Of a stretch of DNA of 36,825 nt, positions 14,845 through 22,009 are shown piece by piece (positions within the stretch are counted from its first letter, which is position 1; the number at the start of each line of letters is the position of its first letter). Both the position numbers and the translations under genes were made by a program. Under the pieces are notes generated by a model that did not search any database, was not told where the DNA came from, and was given only the letters and a program-made list of their open reading frames with translations. The stretch comes from Alphaproteobacteria bacterium (lineage in GTDB: Bacteria > Pseudomonadota > Alphaproteobacteria > Reyranellales > Reyranellaceae): positions 1-36,825 of the forward strand of contig JAHCJT010000008.1 of assembly GCA_026126245.1 (NCBI GenBank), given 5' to 3'.

Positions 14845-15730
14845 TTACCAGTAACGTACCGGCCCGGTGTCGATGTGAACGAAACCCGAGCGCGCGTAGT
14901 AACCGACGCCGCCCTGGCTCAGTGACCACGCCGCCTGGCGAATCTGGTAGGGGGTACGGCCGGGTAACCGCACATCAATCGCCTGTCCGCGCATGTGCAG
15001 GCTGTCCCATGCCACGCCGCGGCTGGCGCTCGCCAGCCAGGCGTTCGTCTCCGGCGAGCGGTAGGCCGACAGCACCTGATAGGGCGCATCGGTGCCCAGA
15101 ACCCGCCGGACCTGCCACAGGATGTCGAACAGCTGCGGGTCCATCTGCACCAGATCACCGTTGCGCGAATCGCGCAGGAAGGCGTTCAGGCGATCGAGTT
15201 CGGACTGCACGTAGCGGCCGTTCTGGCGGAACGTGACGGTGATCGATTCCTGGGTGTTCAGATTGTGGAACGACAGCGTCCGCGGGCTACCGTCATCCGC
15301 CGGCGGCGGCAGTTTCTCGCGCGGCGGCGCGTAAGGCGAGCTCATCACCGGCACGGCGCCGTAGCGCGTGCCGCGGAGAGTCGATGGCGGCCGCGAGCTC
15401 ATGGCCCGGCCACCATTGGTCGTCCGCACCACGGGACGCCAGACGCGCGGCGATGCCGACGCCTGCTGTTGCTGCTGGGCGGCCGGCCTGGGCGCCGCCA
15501 CCTTGGCCGCGGCCGCCGGCTTGGCGCTCGTGGAGGCCGCCTGCGCCTTCTGCGGCGAGCGCACCACCGCCTTGGGCGACGCCGTGGCATTCTTCGGCGG
15601 GGTCGACTTCGGCGCCGTCTTGGCCGCGGGTCGACGGCAGCGACACCGTCGTCTGGGCCATCCCTTGCGAGACGAAGGACATGCCGACGGCACACGCCAG
15701 CAACGCCGTTGCAACCTTTGCCGCCGTCAT
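14845..15730 (-). pseudogene. DUF882 (YcbK/MepK-like, M15-type) exported protein, apparent +1 frameshift
   Basis: The C-terminal two thirds encode a DUF882 domain of the M15 peptidase fold, related to YcbK/MepK murein endopeptidases. Candidate zinc ligands are visible in SLHMRGQAIDVRLPG (His, Asp) and GFVHIDTG (His), and the protein ends VRYW. In this frame the N terminus would be Arg/Cys-rich with no signal. A different frame starting at the ATG at 15730 gives a perfect Sec signal (MTAAKVATALLACAVGMSF, then a cleavage site near GMAQ) and runs into the same region. Removing one base near 15628-15630, a CCC on the coding strand, joins SLPST to AAKTAPKSTPP and yields a 294-residue exported protein with a Pro/Ala/Lys/Gln-rich linker. 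It is therefore either a recent pseudogene, a sequence error or, less likely, a recoding site. A terminator follows. Confidence 0.78.
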
Positions 15731-15776
15731 GAAATTTTCGCCTCGGTGCAAGGAGGTGTTGCAGAATTGCAACTCA

Positions 15777-15804
15777 TTTGTACCAACCAAGGCCTTGATG
15801 GCAA
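15777..15804 (-). promoter_or_regulatory. candidate sigma70-type promoter for the DUF882 gene
   Basis: On the minus strand TTGCCA (15799-15804) and TACAAA (15777-15782) are separated by 16 bases. They lie 47 bases upstream of the ATG at 15730, in a stretch clearly more AT-rich than its surroundings. This is a consensus match only. Confidence 0.4.
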
Positions 15805-15898: not shown

Positions 15899-18370
15899 TC
15901 AGCCGCGTCGCTGCGCCGCCACCGTTTCGATCTCACTGCGCATGTCCGGTCGCTCCGCCAGAAGTCGCCGGAAATCGCGGGCTCGCAGCTGCAGCAAATG
16001 ACAGACGCCGACCGCCACCACGTCGGCGTTGCGCGGCTTGTTCTCCAGCAGCGCGACTTCGCCGAAGAAGGCCCCTTCGCCCAGTTCAACGTCGCCCATC
16101 GCCAGCTTCACCCTGGCCACACCGGCGGCGATAAAATACATCGCATCGCCGCGCTCGCCGCGCGCCACGATCGTCTGGCCGGGCAGCGCCACGCGCGCCT
16201 GCAGCAGCCGGCCGACGGCGGCCACTTCACCGGCGTTGAGCCGCGCGAACAGCGGCACGCGCCCGATCATCGCCGCCAGTTTCAGGCCCAGCCGCAGCGG
16301 TGGGCGCCGGCCGGCCTCCGTCCGACGCTCGTCGAGTGCGCGCTGCAGGTCGTTGTGGACCTCCAGGCTGATCGCCGAGTTGCTGCGCTGGCGATCATAT
16401 TCCGCCGCCTCGAGCCGGATGGCGGCGCGCTGCAGGTGCTGGGTGCGGATGGTGTCGGCGTAGTCGCCATACTGCAACGACAGTGCCTTGAGCGCGCCTT
16501 CGATGCCGTCCAGCCGCTCGTCGAGCAGCGCCTTCAGCTTGCCGGCGACGACATCGCCCAGCAGCTCGGCGACCTCTACGCCGTTGAAGGTGCGCAACTC
16601 GTGCAGCACCACCCGCTCGACCAGCAGCGTCTCGAACCGGTCGGCCAGCCGGCTGGCCAGCGGCCGCTCAAAGCCGAACCGCTGGTGCAGCCACAGGGCG
16701 ACGCGGAAGCCGCGGTCGGCGACGACGTCCTGGCGTAGCGCCAGCGCATAACCCGCGACACCTTCGGTCTGGACCTGGTCGATCAGGCGGTCGGCCGCGA
16801 CCACCAGCACGGTGGCGATATGGCGCGAGATCGTCTGCTGCTCGAACTGCTCGAGATAGAGTTCGCGCTCGCGGGCACACAGCGTGCGCAGGCCATAGGC
16901 CAAACGCTTGTCGAGCGGCAGCGCGACATCGGCGTGCGGTGCCGCCATGGCGGCGCGGCCGGCTTCCAGATGCGGCAGGCGCTGCGCCAGGTCGGCGTCG
17001 GCGCCATAAACCTTGGCGACGTCGCGCACCTGCGTGGCCACCGACGCCCAGGACAGCAGCAGCACCCGGTCGCGCAGGGCCCTGTCGGTCTCGTCCAGCT
17101 CATTGAGCCGGAAGAAGCGCATCAACGGCCGCAGCGTCGGCGCGTTGACGAACAGGGTCATGAGCACGAACAGCGTTGCCAGGATGGCGACGAAATCGCG
17201 CACGTCCTGCGGCAGCCGGCTGTTGCCGTAGGCGACCAGCGCCAGCGCCACGGTGACGGCGCCTCGCAGGCCGCCCCAGACGATCATGGTCTTGTAGCGG
17301 CGGTCGACCGGCTGCACGCGGCCCAGCGCCTCCAGCGCCGGCAGCAGCCCGAACAGCACCAGCGTCCGCGCCCCGAAGGCGCCGACATAGACGGCCAGCA
17401 CCGCGCCCAGGTGCCACCAGCGACAGGCCTCAAGCACGCGCACCGCCACGATCGCCGCCAGCAGGAAGATCAGCGAACTGGCCCAGAACTCGAGCTGGTG
17501 CCAGGTGTGCAGCAGCGCCTCCCACTGGCGCGGCTGCAGGCGCGTTGGCCCCAGTGCCGCCAGGGTCAGCGCCGCCACCACCACTGCGACCACGCCCGAG
17601 ACGTGCAGGTAGTTGTCGCCCAGGATGTAGGCGACATAGGCCAACCCGACCGTGACGGACGCCATGCCGGCGGTCGAGCCGCCCAGCCGCGTAACGATCA
17701 ACAGCGCGACATGCGCCAGCACAATGCCGAGCGCGATGCCGCCCAGGAACTCACGCAGGAAATCAAGGCCCGGCGCGGCGGCATTGGGCACGACCTGCCG
17801 CACCAGCACGTCGATCAGAACGGTGAACGTGGCGATGGCGGCGGCATCGTTGAACAGCGACTCGCCCTCGGCCAGGATCGACAGCCGCTTGGGCGCGCCG
17901 ACCTCGCGCAGGATGCCGATGACGGCGGCCGGATCGGTGGTCGAGACGATCGCGCCCAGCAGCAGGCAAACATAGATGTTCACGCCGGTCGCCACATGCA
18001 CCACGCCACCGACGACGGCGATGCAGACGAATACCGCCACGATGGCCAGCAGCAGCACCGCGGCGATCTCGTCGAACAGCCGGCGAACGTCGATCGTCAG
18101 GCCGGCGGTGAACAGTAGCGGCGGCAGGAAGATGTAGAGAAACGCCTCGGGGCTGGCACCGATGGCCGCCAGGCCCTCGAAAATGTCGCCCATCAGCCCG
18201 AAGCGCCCGGTGTCGCCGGCTAGGCTGGCGCCACCGATTCCAAGCGCGATGCCGACCACCGCCAGCAGCACGGTGTGCGGCACGCGCAGGCGTTCGGCCA
18301 GTGGGAGCAGCAGGCTGACCAGGACCAGCGCCAGTGCAATGGCCAGAATCGCGACGACGATCTGTGTCAA
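15899..18370 (-). CDS. CPA1-family Na+/H+ antiporter with C-terminal cyclic-nucleotide-binding domain
   Basis: An 823-residue inner-membrane cation/proton exchanger. Residues 1 to about 410 are a CPA1 transport domain with roughly a dozen helices and the ion-site motifs TDPAAV (145-150) and EGESLFND (168-175). A long, mostly helical cytoplasmic region follows. The last 123 residues (701-823) form a cNMP-binding domain with the phosphate-binding cassette FGEVALL and PRNADV (Glu 771, Arg 780). That arrangement predicts gating by cAMP or cGMP; this is inference, since some such domains bind other ligands or none. The start is a TTG at 18370 with a weak purine stretch before it; no better start is visible without removing the first helix. 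It lies 45 bases downstream of the kinase gene on the same strand and is probably cotranscribed with it. Confidence 0.9.
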   Translation of the reverse strand: MTQIVVAILAIALALVLVSLLLPLAERLRVPHTVLLAVVGIALGIGGASLAGDTGRFGLMGDIFEGLAAIGASPEAFLYIFLPPLLFTAGLTIDVRRLFDEIAAVLLLAIVAVFVCIAVVGGVVHVATGVNIYVCLLLGAIVSTTDPAAVIGILREVGAPKRLSILAEGESLFNDAAAIATFTVLIDVLVRQVVPNAAAPGLDFLREFLGGIALGIVLAHVALLIVTRLGGSTAGMASVTVGLAYVAYILGDNYLHVSGVVAVVVAALTLAALGPTRLQPRQWEALLHTWHQLEFWASSLIFLLAAIVAVRVLEACRWWHLGAVLAVYVGAFGARTLVLFGLLPALEALGRVQPVDRRYKTMIVWGGLRGAVTVALALVAYGNSRLPQDVRDFVAILATLFVLMTLFVNAPTLRPLMRFFRLNELDETDRALRDRVLLLSWASVATQVRDVAKVYGADADLAQRLPHLEAGRAAMAAPHADVALPLDKRLAYGLRTLCARERELYLEQFEQQTISRHIATVLVVAADRLIDQVQTEGVAGYALALRQDVVADRGFRVALWLHQRFGFERPLASRLADRFETLLVERVVLHELRTFNGVEVAELLGDVVAGKLKALLDERLDGIEGALKALSLQYGDYADTIRTQHLQRAAIRLEAAEYDRQRSNSAISLEVHNDLQRALDERRTEAGRRPPLRLGLKLAAMIGRVPLFARLNAGEVAAVGRLLQARVALPGQTIVARGERGDAMYFIAAGVARVKLAMGDVELGEGAFFGEVALLENKPRNADVVAVGVCHLLQLRARDFRRLLAERPDMRSEIETVAAQRRG

Positions 18371-18415
18371 TCCGCCCCCGTGCGTCGCCGCGCCGGCAAC
18401 GCGCGCCGGCCTGCC

Positions 18416-20701
18416 CTACTCGTCGCGACGCACCGGTGCACCGGCGCGCCAGTCGCCGGACGACATGGCGCCGTCGCGCATCACCACCACACCGTAGCCG
18501 TCAGCGACTCCGTCGACAAACGTTCCATGAAAGCGCGTGCCGTCGGGTGCCAGCAGCGTGCCCTGGCCGTGGCGCTTGCCGGCGTGGAAGCTGCCTTCGT
18601 AGCGCCAGCCAGATGTCGTGGTCTCGACTCCTGGCCCTTCCAGCACGCCGTTTTGCCAGGCGCCGGCGCGGGTTGTGGTATCGCGCCCGTCGCCGATCAC
18701 GCGTACCCCGAGGCCCTGCGGCTGGCCGCTCCTGACCTCGCCGAGGTGACGCTCCTGCGGTCCCAGGCGGAAGAGGCCGACGCCATCGGGCGAGCCGGCT
18801 TTCCACTCGCCCTCGTATCCGCGGCCATCGCCGGTGCGCAGCACGCCCAGGCCGTCCAACCGGTCGCCCTTCCAATCGCCGGCCTGGCGTTCGCCGCCGC
18901 GCAACTCGGCCACACCCAGGCCATTGCGATGGCCGTCACTCAGCTGGCCGACATAGCTGGCGCCATCGTCGAACGTCAGCCGCTCGGCTCCCGGCAGGTC
19001 CGGTTTGCCGGCTTCGGCGGCCCGGATGCGTGCCGCGCCAGCCCGTTCCAGCGCCCGCTCCTGCGCCTGCGCTGCCTGCGCCGCCACCGCTCGCGCCTGC
19101 TCGGCGGCCTGACGCGTGGCGTCGAGAAGCTTGTCGCGCGCCGCCTTGACCGCCGCCGGTACCGGCGCCGGCGTCGAGGTGGCCACGGTGGGTGCGCCCG
19201 CCTCGCCCTTGCGCAACAGGTCATCGATGGTCGCGACCTTGCCTTCGGGCGGCTCGCCACCGCCCGGCGGCTGGATCGGCACCGGCTCGCCTTTCGGCTC
19301 GATGGTGCGCGACTCGGGTGGCGCCGGCGACCCACCGGCCGGCGTGGGCGCTGCAGGCGTAGGGGCTGCCGACGTGGGTGCTGCTGACGTGGGCGCTGCT
19401 GCCTTGGGCGCTGCTGCCTTGGGCGCGGCAGACGTAGAGGATGGCACCGCGACGGACGACGGCGGCACTGGCGCGGGCGGCGGCGCCGGTGGCCGCGCGT
19501 CAACCGTTTTGGGATCGCCGCTGACTGGCGGACGCGCCTGCCACGCGTAGAGGGCTCCGGCGCCCAGCAGCAGCACCACGGCGATGCCGGCCATGGCGCG
19601 GCCCGGGCCACGTCGTCGCACCGCGGCCACGGGTCGCACGCGGTCGCTGGCATCGACGCCTGCCAGGCGTCGCACCGCCTCGCCGGCCGGCAACGCGTCG
19701 TCGACCGCCCGAAGATCCGGAGCGCGGCTGGAGGGCGTCACCCGGGTCAGCGGCGCCTGCATCACCCGGGTCCGCGCCGCCGCCGGGATCGCCTCCGCCA
19801 GGCCGTCGGCCGACGCCGCGGCGGGCGGCGCCGTGCCCATGGTCTGGCGCCAGGCGGCGATGGTCTGCGGCCGCTCCTCGGGATGCACGGCCAGCCCCCG
19901 ATCGATGGCGCCGAGGAAGGCCTCGCTGTAGCCGGCAATCTCCACCTCGGCCAACCGGCGGCAGGGATCCTTGCGCACCCGCGCCGGCGCCTCGGGCGGC
20001 GCCTCGCCGGTGACGGCGTGGAACGCCACCGCCGCCAGCGCGTAGATGTCGGTCCACGGCCCCTGCTCGGCGTCGGCCTGGTATTGCTCCAGCGGCGCAT
20101 AGCGCGGCGTGACGATGCTGGTCAGGGTGACGTCGCCGCGCCGCAACGCCTGTCGGGCGGCGCCGAAATCGACCAGCACCGGCGTGCCGTCCTCGCGCAC
20201 GATGATGTTGGACGGCTTGATGTCACGGTGCAGAAAGCCGGCGGCATGGACCTGCGCCAGCCCGTCCATCAGACCCTCGAGCAGTGCCCGTACCCGGGCC
20301 GGCGGCAGACGCCCGGGACCGGCCAGCAGGTCGGCCAGCGAGCGACCTTGCTCGTACTCCATCACGATGTAGGCGGTACCGTTGGCCTCGAAGAAACGCA
20401 GCACCGGCACGATGTTGGCGTGGCGGAAGCGCGCCAGGGTGCGCGCCTCGTCGAGGAAGCGGTCGAGGCCCCAGCGATAGTCGTCCGCCAAGCGCCGGGT
20501 GCGCGGCATTACCGTGGCGCCGGCGGCACGCACGGCGAACTGGGCCGGCAGGTATTCCTTGATCGCCACCTGCTTGCGCAGCGTGGTGTCGTCGGCAAGG
20601 TAGGTGATGCCGAAGCCGCCATGCCCCAGCACGCGCACGATGCGGTATTCGTGCAGCGCGTGGCGTGGAGGCAGGGCGATGGGATAGTCGGTGCCGGGCA
20701 T
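18416..20701 (-). CDS. membrane serine/threonine protein kinase with C-terminal MORN repeats
   Basis: A 761-residue Hanks-type kinase. In order: the kinase domain at about 19-290, with glycine loop GHGGFG (26-31), Lys 48 in VAIK, catalytic HRD with Asp 160 followed by IKPSN, DFG at 178-180 and APLE at 202-205, all expected of an active kinase; one membrane helix at about 371-388; a Pro/Ala-rich linker with six 5-residue repeats (426-455); an Ala-rich helical, possibly coiled-coil stretch (about 515-565); and seven MORN repeats plus part of an eighth (583-757), the best being YEGEWKAGSPDGVGLF and YEGSFHAGKRHGQGTL. With one helix the MORN tail should be periplasmic. I use the ATG at 20701, where kinase similarity begins; the frame runs on to 21748 only as a shadow of the LtrA gene. 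No strong ribosome site is visible. Targets are unknown. Confidence 0.9.
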   Translation of the reverse strand: MPGTDYPIALPPRHALHEYRIVRVLGHGGFGITYLADDTTLRKQVAIKEYLPAQFAVRAAGATVMPRTRRLADDYRWGLDRFLDEARTLARFRHANIVPVLRFFEANGTAYIVMEYEQGRSLADLLAGPGRLPPARVRALLEGLMDGLAQVHAAGFLHRDIKPSNIIVREDGTPVLVDFGAARQALRRGDVTLTSIVTPRYAPLEQYQADAEQGPWTDIYALAAVAFHAVTGEAPPEAPARVRKDPCRRLAEVEIAGYSEAFLGAIDRGLAVHPEERPQTIAAWRQTMGTAPPAAASADGLAEAIPAAARTRVMQAPLTRVTPSSRAPDLRAVDDALPAGEAVRRLAGVDASDRVRPVAAVRRRGPGRAMAGIAVVLLLGAGALYAWQARPPVSGDPKTVDARPPAPPPAPVPPSSVAVPSSTSAAPKAAAPKAAAPTSAAPTSAAPTPAAPTPAGGSPAPPESRTIEPKGEPVPIQPPGGGEPPEGKVATIDDLLRKGEAGAPTVATSTPAPVPAAVKAARDKLLDATRQAAEQARAVAAQAAQAQERALERAGAARIRAAEAGKPDLPGAERLTFDDGASYVGQLSDGHRNGLGVAELRGGERQAGDWKGDRLDGLGVLRTGDGRGYEGEWKAGSPDGVGLFRLGPQERHLGEVRSGQPQGLGVRVIGDGRDTTTRAGAWQNGVLEGPGVETTTSGWRYEGSFHAGKRHGQGTLLAPDGTRFHGTFVDGVADGYGVVVMRDGAMSSGDWRAGAPVRRDE
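19337..19426 (-). repeat. 15-bp tandem repeats (six units) in the kinase linker
   Basis: Six 15-bp units encode APKAA twice, APTSA twice and APTPA twice (residues 426-455). Units occur as near-identical neighbouring pairs, which points to recent slippage-type duplication within the periplasmic linker. Confidence 0.75.
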
Positions 20702-20815: not shown

Positions 20816-22009
20816 ATGCCCGCCAGCGAGACGTCCCGGAACCTGCTGCGCCAGCGCACGCCACATGCGCATGGCAAGGTGACCTTCATCGAGCTGTTTT
20901 TCGACCTGGTGTTCGTCTTCGCCGTCACCCAGCTGTCGCATTCCTTTCTTGAGCATCTGAGCGTCGCCGGCGCGCTGCTGACGACCCTGCTGCTGATGGC
21001 CGTGTGGTGGGTGTGGATCTACACCTCGTGGGTCACCAACTGGCTCGATCCCGAGACATGGCCGGTCCGTCTGCTGCTGCTGGTCCTGATGCTGGCCGGG
21101 CTGGTACTGTCGACCTCGCTGCCCAAGGCCTTCGAGTCGCTCGGCCTCGCCTTCGCCGGCGCCTATGCCTTCATGCAGGTCGGGCGCACCGCCTTCACGT
21201 TGTGGGCGGTCGGCACCGGGAATCCCGGCCTGGTGCGCAATTTCCAGCGCATCCTGGCATGGCTGACGCTGTCGGCCGTGTTCTGGATCGCCGGCGGCAT
21301 CGCCGAAGGTCCGGTGCGGCTCGCGCTCTGGGTCGTCGCGCTGGCCATCGAGTATCTCGCGCCGTCGGTTGGTTTCTGGGTGCCCGGCATCGGCCGGTCG
21401 CTGACCCGCGACTGGAACGTCGAAGGCGGCCACATGGCCGAACGTTGCGGGCTGTTCATCATCATCGCGCTGGGCGAGTCGATCCTGGTGACCGGCGCCA
21501 CCTTCGAGAAGCTGCCATGGACCTTCGCCGTCGTGGCGGCCTTCGCGGTATCGTTTGTCGGCAGCGTCGCCATGTGGTGGATCTATTTCGACACCGGGCA
21601 TGAGCGCGGCAGCCACCACATCTCGACGTCCGACGATCCCGGACGCCTGGCGCGCATCGCCTATACCTATATGCACCTGCCGATCGTCGCCGGCATCATT
21701 GTCGCGGCGGTCGCCGACGAGCTGGTGCTGGCCGACCCGGCCGGCCACGCCGAAGCGCCGGCGATCGCCGTCATTCTCGGTGGCCCGGCGCTCTATCTGC
21801 TGGGCAACACACTGTTCAAATGCGTCATCGCCGGCCGCCTACCGCTGTCGCACCTGATCGGACTGGCGCTGCTGGCGGCGCTGCTGCCGCTGGCCTGGTC
21901 GCTGTCGCTGCTGGCGCTGGCCAGTGCCACCACCGCTGTCCTGATCGTGGTGGCGGTGTGGGAAATGGTGTCGCTGCGCGCCGGCCGGACGGCAGCCACG
22001 CGCCCCTGA
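20816..22009 (+). CDS. low temperature requirement protein A (LtrA) family membrane protein
   Basis: A 397-residue integral membrane protein of the LtrA family, with about ten to eleven predicted helices. Diagnostic stretches are VTFIELFFDLVFVFAVTQLS near the N terminus, the central VEGGHMAERCGLFIIIALGESI, and WWIYFDTGHERG with its following YTYMHLPIV. LtrA was named from a Listeria mutant that grew poorly at low temperature; its molecular activity is not established. The start is the ATG at 20816; an overlapping ATG at 20812 is in another frame. The gene is divergent from the kinase across 114 bases and converges on the LytTR gene. Confidence 0.88.
   Translation: MPASETSRNLLRQRTPHAHGKVTFIELFFDLVFVFAVTQLSHSFLEHLSVAGALLTTLLLMAVWWVWIYTSWVTNWLDPETWPVRLLLLVLMLAGLVLSTSLPKAFESLGLAFAGAYAFMQVGRTAFTLWAVGTGNPGLVRNFQRILAWLTLSAVFWIAGGIAEGPVRLALWVVALAIEYLAPSVGFWVPGIGRSLTRDWNVEGGHMAERCGLFIIIALGESILVTGATFEKLPWTFAVVAAFAVSFVGSVAMWWIYFDTGHERGSHHISTSDDPGRLARIAYTYMHLPIVAGIIVAAVADELVLADPAGHAEAPAIAVILGGPALYLLGNTLFKCVIAGRLPLSHLIGLALLAALLPLAWSLSLLALASATTAVLIVVAVWEMVSLRAGRTAATRP

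Follow-up and report, generated by a model that had tools for sequence, protein, structure and literature searches.

Can phosphorylation and cyclic-nucleotide binding converge on a single bacterial ion exchanger? The question is raised by two neighbouring minus-strand genes within the 36,825 nucleotides (nt) of contig JAHCJT010000008.1, referred to here as the window. The upstream gene encodes a Hanks-type Ser/Thr kinase with a tail of MORN repeats, and the downstream gene encodes a CPA1 antiporter ending in a cyclic-nucleotide-binding domain (CNBD). The source organism is a Vineibacter (Reyranellaceae), represented by a draft genome of 4.98 Mb that is 87.7% complete; among named organisms, Vineibacter terrae is closest at this locus, with an antiporter that is 84% identical. 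The parts of both proteins belong to known families. What is new is their conserved pairing, together with the wide bacterial distribution of exchangers that have the domain order of SOS1/SLC9C1 and an intact nucleotide pocket, contrary to a 2020 review in which the combination of exchanger and CNBD was reported as not present in bacteria (PMC7573149). A search of the open-access literature returned no study of MORN-kinases or of bacterial CNBD antiporters, and earlier reports may exist elsewhere.

Conservation of the gene pair

A preliminary description of the locus, made from its sequence, had proposed a functional link between the two genes from their adjacency and had named conservation in related genomes as a check. 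It gave the exact position of the 45-nt gap separating the two open reading frames, without giving the strand. V. terrae has a gap of the same length, as has Reyranella sp. CPCC 100927, and a scan of the gap in the window found no sigma-70-like promoter or terminator above chance, a test of little power in a GC-rich alphaproteobacterium. We infer that the two genes are co-transcribed.

Conservation was surveyed in 38 genomes from the family and its sister family and in 23 further members of the class. Of the 38, 37 have the antiporter (36 from the family and one from the sister family), as do 2/23 of the other genomes, and a pattern scan outside this set found hundreds of relatives. The MORN kinase, searched for separately with its MORN part and its kinase domain as queries, was found in essentially the same 37 genomes, and the family member without the antiporter (G004, a single case) also has no MORN kinase. 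Kinase followed by antiporter on the same strand, with a gap of 41–243 nt, was observed in 9/9 genomes, comprising four of four Vineibacter-type genomes (g1), four of four from a second genus (g5) and the sister-family genome G037; the pair thus passes the conservation check named in the preliminary description. In Reyranella (g3) and in a fourth genus (g4) both genes are kept at separate places, and the antiporter adjoins gatC-gatA.

The kinase-domain tree gathers the MORN kinases into a single clade (support 97/94), in which G037 is basal, g1 groups with g5, and g3 with g4; the antiporter tree has the same branching order, again with the sister family basal. Because the two trees agree, the order (Reyranellaceae plus the sister family) probably inherited the pair from its common ancestor. 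The simplest history is a pairing before the two families split followed by one separation in the ancestor of g3 and g4; that the genes came together twice at one location is possible, though less likely. The pair persisted while identity fell to 45% between kinases and 54% between antiporters and the surrounding gene order was lost: G037 has in common with the window neighbourhood only the kinase, the antiporter and the endopeptidase gene mepK, plus one loosely clustered family.

Two further observations concern these loci. Palindromic repeats of the type CCTTCCCCCGGAGGGGGAAGG occur in the kinase-antiporter gap of L164, L166, L167 and L168 without separating the genes; they are not in the gap of the window, V. 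terrae, G007 or G037, and look like a mobile intergenic repeat family. In addition, one Reyranella metagenome-assembled genome (MAG; locus L076) has a kinase directly downstream of the antiporter. It was not counted as a pair, as this kinase belongs to another paralogue group in the kinase tree and carries PG_binding_1 rather than MORN. Other Reyranella have gatC-gatA at that position, and the L076 kinase is plausibly a chance neighbour, there being several such kinases per genome.

Architecture of the antiporter

The preliminary description of the downstream product as a CPA1 antiporter with a C-terminal cyclic-nucleotide-binding domain at residues 701–823 was borne out, boundaries included, by Pfam matches to Na_H_Exchanger (PF00999, 5.2e-51) and cNMP_binding (7.5e-18). 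The motif N174-D175 is invariant in 53/53 homologues. By sequence, plant SOS1 proteins are the top PDB matches, and a 53-sequence antiporter profile is colinear with rice SOS1 (OsSOS1) over residues 14–831 (7.5e-112), spanning the membrane, helical and CNBD parts; against SLC9C1, the best stretch by sequence covers the exchanger part only. Furthermore, the AlphaFold model (pLDDT, the predicted local distance difference test, 82) has SOS1 (7y3e) and SLC9C1 (8pcz) as its best two Foldseek matches.

An intact pocket for the nucleotide input that had been proposed for the antiporter is supported by its phosphate-binding cassette, which fits the pattern FGE(x)nPR(x)A, with Glu 771 kept in 53/53 and Arg 780 in 49/53 bacterial homologues. 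The equivalent stretch of SOS1 reads GLYEVLIGKPYICD and is missing the Arg; the SOS1 structure paper reported that the conserved CNBD arginine is not retained, and cAMP binding is thought to be absent (PMC10372031). The source genome encodes 38 class III cyclase domains, and cyclic nucleotides are therefore probably plentiful in the cell. The protein stops at residue 823, the end of the CNBD, and thus has neither the beta C-terminal domain (beta-CTD) nor the autoinhibitory tail with the SOS2 phosphosite. No voltage-sensing domain was found by Pfam scan, and residues 418–700 lack hydrophobic membrane segments and are modelled as helices. Because autoinhibitory tail and voltage sensor were both tested for and are absent, the protein, which would work like SOS1 or SLC9C1, was not filed as either; it is read here as an electroneutral Na+(K+)/H+ exchanger of the SOS1/SLC9C1 type that has kept its cAMP/cGMP-binding residues.

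Both Pfam domains were detected in 53/53 bacterial homologues scanned, which by their record titles come from Alpha-, Beta- and Gammaproteobacteria, Acidobacteriota, Nitrospinota and Planctomycetota, and in which the pocket is mostly intact. In the structural and evolutionary literature, the exchanger-plus-CNBD combination has been taken as a plant and algal (SOS1) or animal sperm (SLC9C1) invention. The bacterial homologues offer small, expressible models for CNBD gating of an exchanger, and the conserved kinase partner makes bacterial kinase control of such an exchanger directly testable.

Architecture of the kinase

Along the upstream protein (Pkinase, 7.8e-32; MORN, PF02493, 1.2e-19), a kinase domain is followed by one transmembrane helix, a disordered linker, a long helix and about 7.5 MORN repeats (Table 1). 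The best PDB match of residues 9–283 is PpkA (5hnv, 1.2e-63), and residues 571–758 match MORN1 (6t4r, 9.6e-25). K48, HRD 158–160, N165, DFG 178–180 and the activation-loop residues T194/T198 are invariant in 26 orthologues; by these residues the kinase is catalytically complete, as first described. The single membrane helix was likewise recovered, as the sole hydrophobic segment (366–389) and as helix 367–388 of an AlphaFold model built from 26 sequences (mean pLDDT 74), where a disordered Pro/Ala linker follows it. Since positive charge favours the N-terminal flank of this segment in most orthologues, the C-terminal half is predicted to be periplasmic; this and the AlphaFold layout support the location originally proposed for the MORN part. 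Six Reyranella orthologues score low in the hydropathy scan (1.0–1.4), and a short hydrophobic run is still present in most of these.

The helix of residues 516–564, in which an Ala-rich segment is conserved in the alignment of the 26 orthologues, is a possible dimerising coiled coil. Behind it, the MORN beta-sheet is continuous over residues 572–760 (pLDDT mostly >90), with units starting at about 583, 606, 629, 652, 678, 701 and 724 and a half unit at 747, in agreement with the "seven-plus" repeats counted initially. The repeats have the 23-residue length, GxG motif and beta-hairpin sheet of the MORN family (PF02493, 6t4r match, model). A role of this part as a lipid sensor, suggested in the preliminary description, is weakened and was set aside: in a structural study of MORN proteins, the best-studied member showed no vesicle binding, and the results pointed to dimerisation instead (PMC7725318). 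For this reason, dimerisation or protein contact seems more likely than lipid binding for the module.

PpkA-like kinases gave 9 matches in the source genome and 15 in G002. The source genome and its relatives are rich in PpkA-like kinases and, with its cyclase domains, the source genome holds a rich set of Ser/Thr and cyclic-nucleotide signalling components.

Table 1. Coordinates of the features discussed (window positions unless a locus is named; aa, amino acids).
Feature	Position	Strand	Basis or remark
Ser/Thr (Hanks/PpkA-like) kinase, 761 aa, single transmembrane helix and MORN repeats; start codon ATG at 20701, open reading frame ending at 18416	18416..20701	-	Pfam, PDB matches, AlphaFold
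Kinase domain, residues 1-300, full set of catalytic motifs	19802..20701	-	
Transmembrane helix, residues 366-389, arginine-rich N-terminal flank	19535..19606	-	Hydropathy, charge, AlphaFold
Long alpha helix ahead of MORN sheet, residues 516-564	19010..19156	-	AlphaFold, pLDDT 95-98 over most
MORN-repeat beta-sheet, residues about 572-761, 7 full units and a half	18419..18988	-	Pfam, 6t4r match, AlphaFold
Gap from kinase stop to antiporter start, 45 nt	18371..18415	-	
CPA1 Na+/H+ antiporter, SOS1/SLC9C1 architecture, 823 aa; start codon TTG, open reading frame 18370-15899	15899..18370	-	Pfam, OsSOS1 profile match, Foldseek
Exchanger membrane domain, residues 17-417, N174-D175 = CPA1 electroneutral ND motif	17120..18322	-	Pfam, alignment
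Cytosolic helical domain, residues about 418-700, equivalent to SOS1 alpha-CTD	16271..17119	-	Profile match, AlphaFold, Foldseek
Cyclic-nucleotide-binding domain, residues 701-823, phosphate-binding cassette FFGEVALLENKPRNAD (about 768-783)	15902..16270	-	
MepK-type peptidoglycan L,D-endopeptidase (M15/DUF882)	14845..15714	-	Next gene downstream in g1 and g5
YcbB-like L,D-transpeptidase (Scaffold, YkuD, PG_binding_1)	L163 2636-4336	-	Between antiporter and MepK in the sister-family genome
Different PpkA-like kinase with peptidoglycan-binding domain	L076 1287-3806	+	Directly after antiporter

Proposed mechanism and alternative readings

The reading that we tentatively prefer, while holding it at somewhat short of an even chance, is that an envelope-sensing kinase and a cyclic nucleotide both tune one electroneutral antiporter, with the kinase acting by phosphorylation. 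Because the C-terminal domain of the antiporter kept the cAMP/cGMP-binding residues, its basal switch would be cAMP or cGMP bound at the CNBD. The kinase would read the state of the envelope through its periplasmic helix-plus-MORN module, which would dimerise or contact an envelope protein or peptidoglycan rather than lipid, and would relay the signal inward as Ser/Thr phosphorylation. The most likely target would be the cytosolic helical/CNBD part of the antiporter, functionally like SOS2 acting on SOS1; the kinase might tune the antiporter directly or via a shared partner, with the cyclic nucleotide as the second input. The pair has the components that both inputs would need. The layout of the two proteins, the adjacency and conservation of their genes, the intact catalytic and ligand-binding residues and the SOS1/SLC9C1 fold are observed; cAMP gating, the periplasmic stimulus and phosphorylation of the antiporter are inferred.

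Several observations weigh against this proposal. The SOS1 autoinhibitory tail with its phosphosite is absent from the bacterial antiporter, and several related kinases are present in the source genome (9 matches in all). The linkage is dispensable, both genes being kept far apart in Reyranella and g4, and among 78 other antiporter loci, 60 of which have at least 1.5 kb on both sides, none outside the family had a kinase neighbour, the only hit being the different kinase of L076. The sister family is sampled by a single MAG, 81% complete. In a Ser/Thr scan of the antiporters, no residue combined conservation across all paired lineages with absence elsewhere; T428, T520 and T581 are present in 8/9 paired versus 1–2/10 unpaired antiporters, an enrichment that may reflect shared ancestry only and was not used as evidence. 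Finally, MepK, joined in the sister family by an L,D-transpeptidase, is syntenic with the kinase, so that the target of the kinase may instead be related to the cell wall.

This last point leads to the main rival, a minority possibility to be taken seriously, in which the kinase serves envelope or peptidoglycan stress and in reality targets cell-wall enzymes or other proteins, and the antiporter shares the operon via a common envelope or osmotic response rather than as a substrate. PpkA/PknB-type kinases commonly act on envelope systems. Every genome with the pair has MepK on the downstream side of the kinase, and 3/6 examined kinase loci of Reyranella, no longer accompanied by the antiporter, still have MepK with some of the genes (DUF924, sulfatase) clustered after the pair in g1 and g5. 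Likewise, the gene order in the sister-family genome is kinase, antiporter, transpeptidase, endopeptidase, and the different kinase beside the L076 antiporter has a PG_binding_1 domain. However, the immediate partner in g1, g5 and f2 is the antiporter and not MepK, and at three other Reyranella kinase loci (L174, L180 and L182) neither MepK nor the antiporter stands beside the kinase. It appears improbable, though not negligibly so, that the genes are adjacent by descent with no functional link, the antiporter having landed once downstream of the kinase and stayed. The loss of linkage in g3/g4 with no visible consequence, the failure to find a kinase neighbour of the antiporter outside the family and the restriction of all paired genomes to one order would fit such a history; yet the pair outlasted both the sequence divergence given above and the loss of surrounding gene order, stayed together when palindromic repeats entered the gap in four genomes, and is missing as a whole from G004. 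More improbable still is a CNBD that is a structural relic without nucleotide binding, leaving control to phosphorylation or pH only. The precedent is plant SOS1, in which the CNBD-like domain no longer has the conserved Arg and is believed to bind no cAMP (PMC10372031), but the near-universal cassette Glu and Arg of the bacterial homologues and the many cyclase domains of the genome speak against its extension to this protein.

Comparison with known systems

The preliminary description could not name such a pairing. The antiporter type, at least, has a name, the SOS1/SLC9C1 architecture, with control by phosphorylation in SOS1 or by cAMP in SLC9C1. Plant SOS1 (NHX7) has the CPA1 exchanger, cytosolic helical domain and CNBD in equal order, and its known activator is a Ser/Thr kinase, the SOS2-SOS3 complex, which acts by phosphorylation (PMC10372031); here a kinase gene adjoins that of the antiporter, which is circumstantial evidence for such control. 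Unlike SOS1, the bacterial antiporter keeps the nucleotide-binding Glu and Arg and has neither beta-CTD nor autoinhibitory phospho-tail. The kinases are not orthologous, the bacterial one being a membrane PpkA-like protein with a periplasmic part and SOS2 a soluble CIPK. A true bacterial counterpart of the SOS2-SOS1 pathway, in which a transmembrane envelope-sensing Ser/Thr kinase phosphorylates an SOS1-architecture antiporter that is still cAMP-gated, is on balance unlikely; if it is true, a single transporter would integrate phosphorylation and a cyclic nucleotide, and the pair would show the role of the SOS1 CNBD before ligand loss. More loosely, the pair may be a bacterial parallel, in a soil-type bacterium, of the kinase-SOS1 pathway by which plants respond to salt, cyclic AMP being the second input. 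Sperm SLC9C1, which is among the best fold matches and is gated by cAMP binding at its CNBD (PMC6052114, PMC10620091), differs in having a voltage-sensing domain.

On the kinase side, PpkA of type VI secretion provides the nearest solved kinase domain and also has one transmembrane helix and a periplasmic part, but the periplasmic domain here consists of MORN repeats. No type VI secretion gene was found among the scanned neighbours (LtrA, LytTR, MepK, DUF924 and antiporter), and no genome-wide search for such genes was made. The PASTA kinases PknB and StkP similarly combine a cytosolic kinase, one transmembrane helix and an extracytoplasmic repeat sensor, tied in their case to the state of the cell wall; the present kinase has MORN and not PASTA, no PASTA domain being detected by Pfam scan and the NCBIfam PASTA-kinase model NF033483 scoring 129 bits against a cut-off of 450.

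Neighbouring genes

In the mepK region of the window (14845–15790, minus strand), the signal peptide (MTAAKVATALLACAVGMSFVSQGMAQ) is out of frame with the M15 domain; in V. terrae both lie in one frame, and the frameshift near the signal peptide is probably an assembly indel. On the other side, an LtrA (low temperature requirement A) gene (20816–22009, plus strand) diverges from the kinase start with 114 nt between them. It was placed outside the kinase-antiporter unit because V. terrae has a different gene upstream of the kinase.
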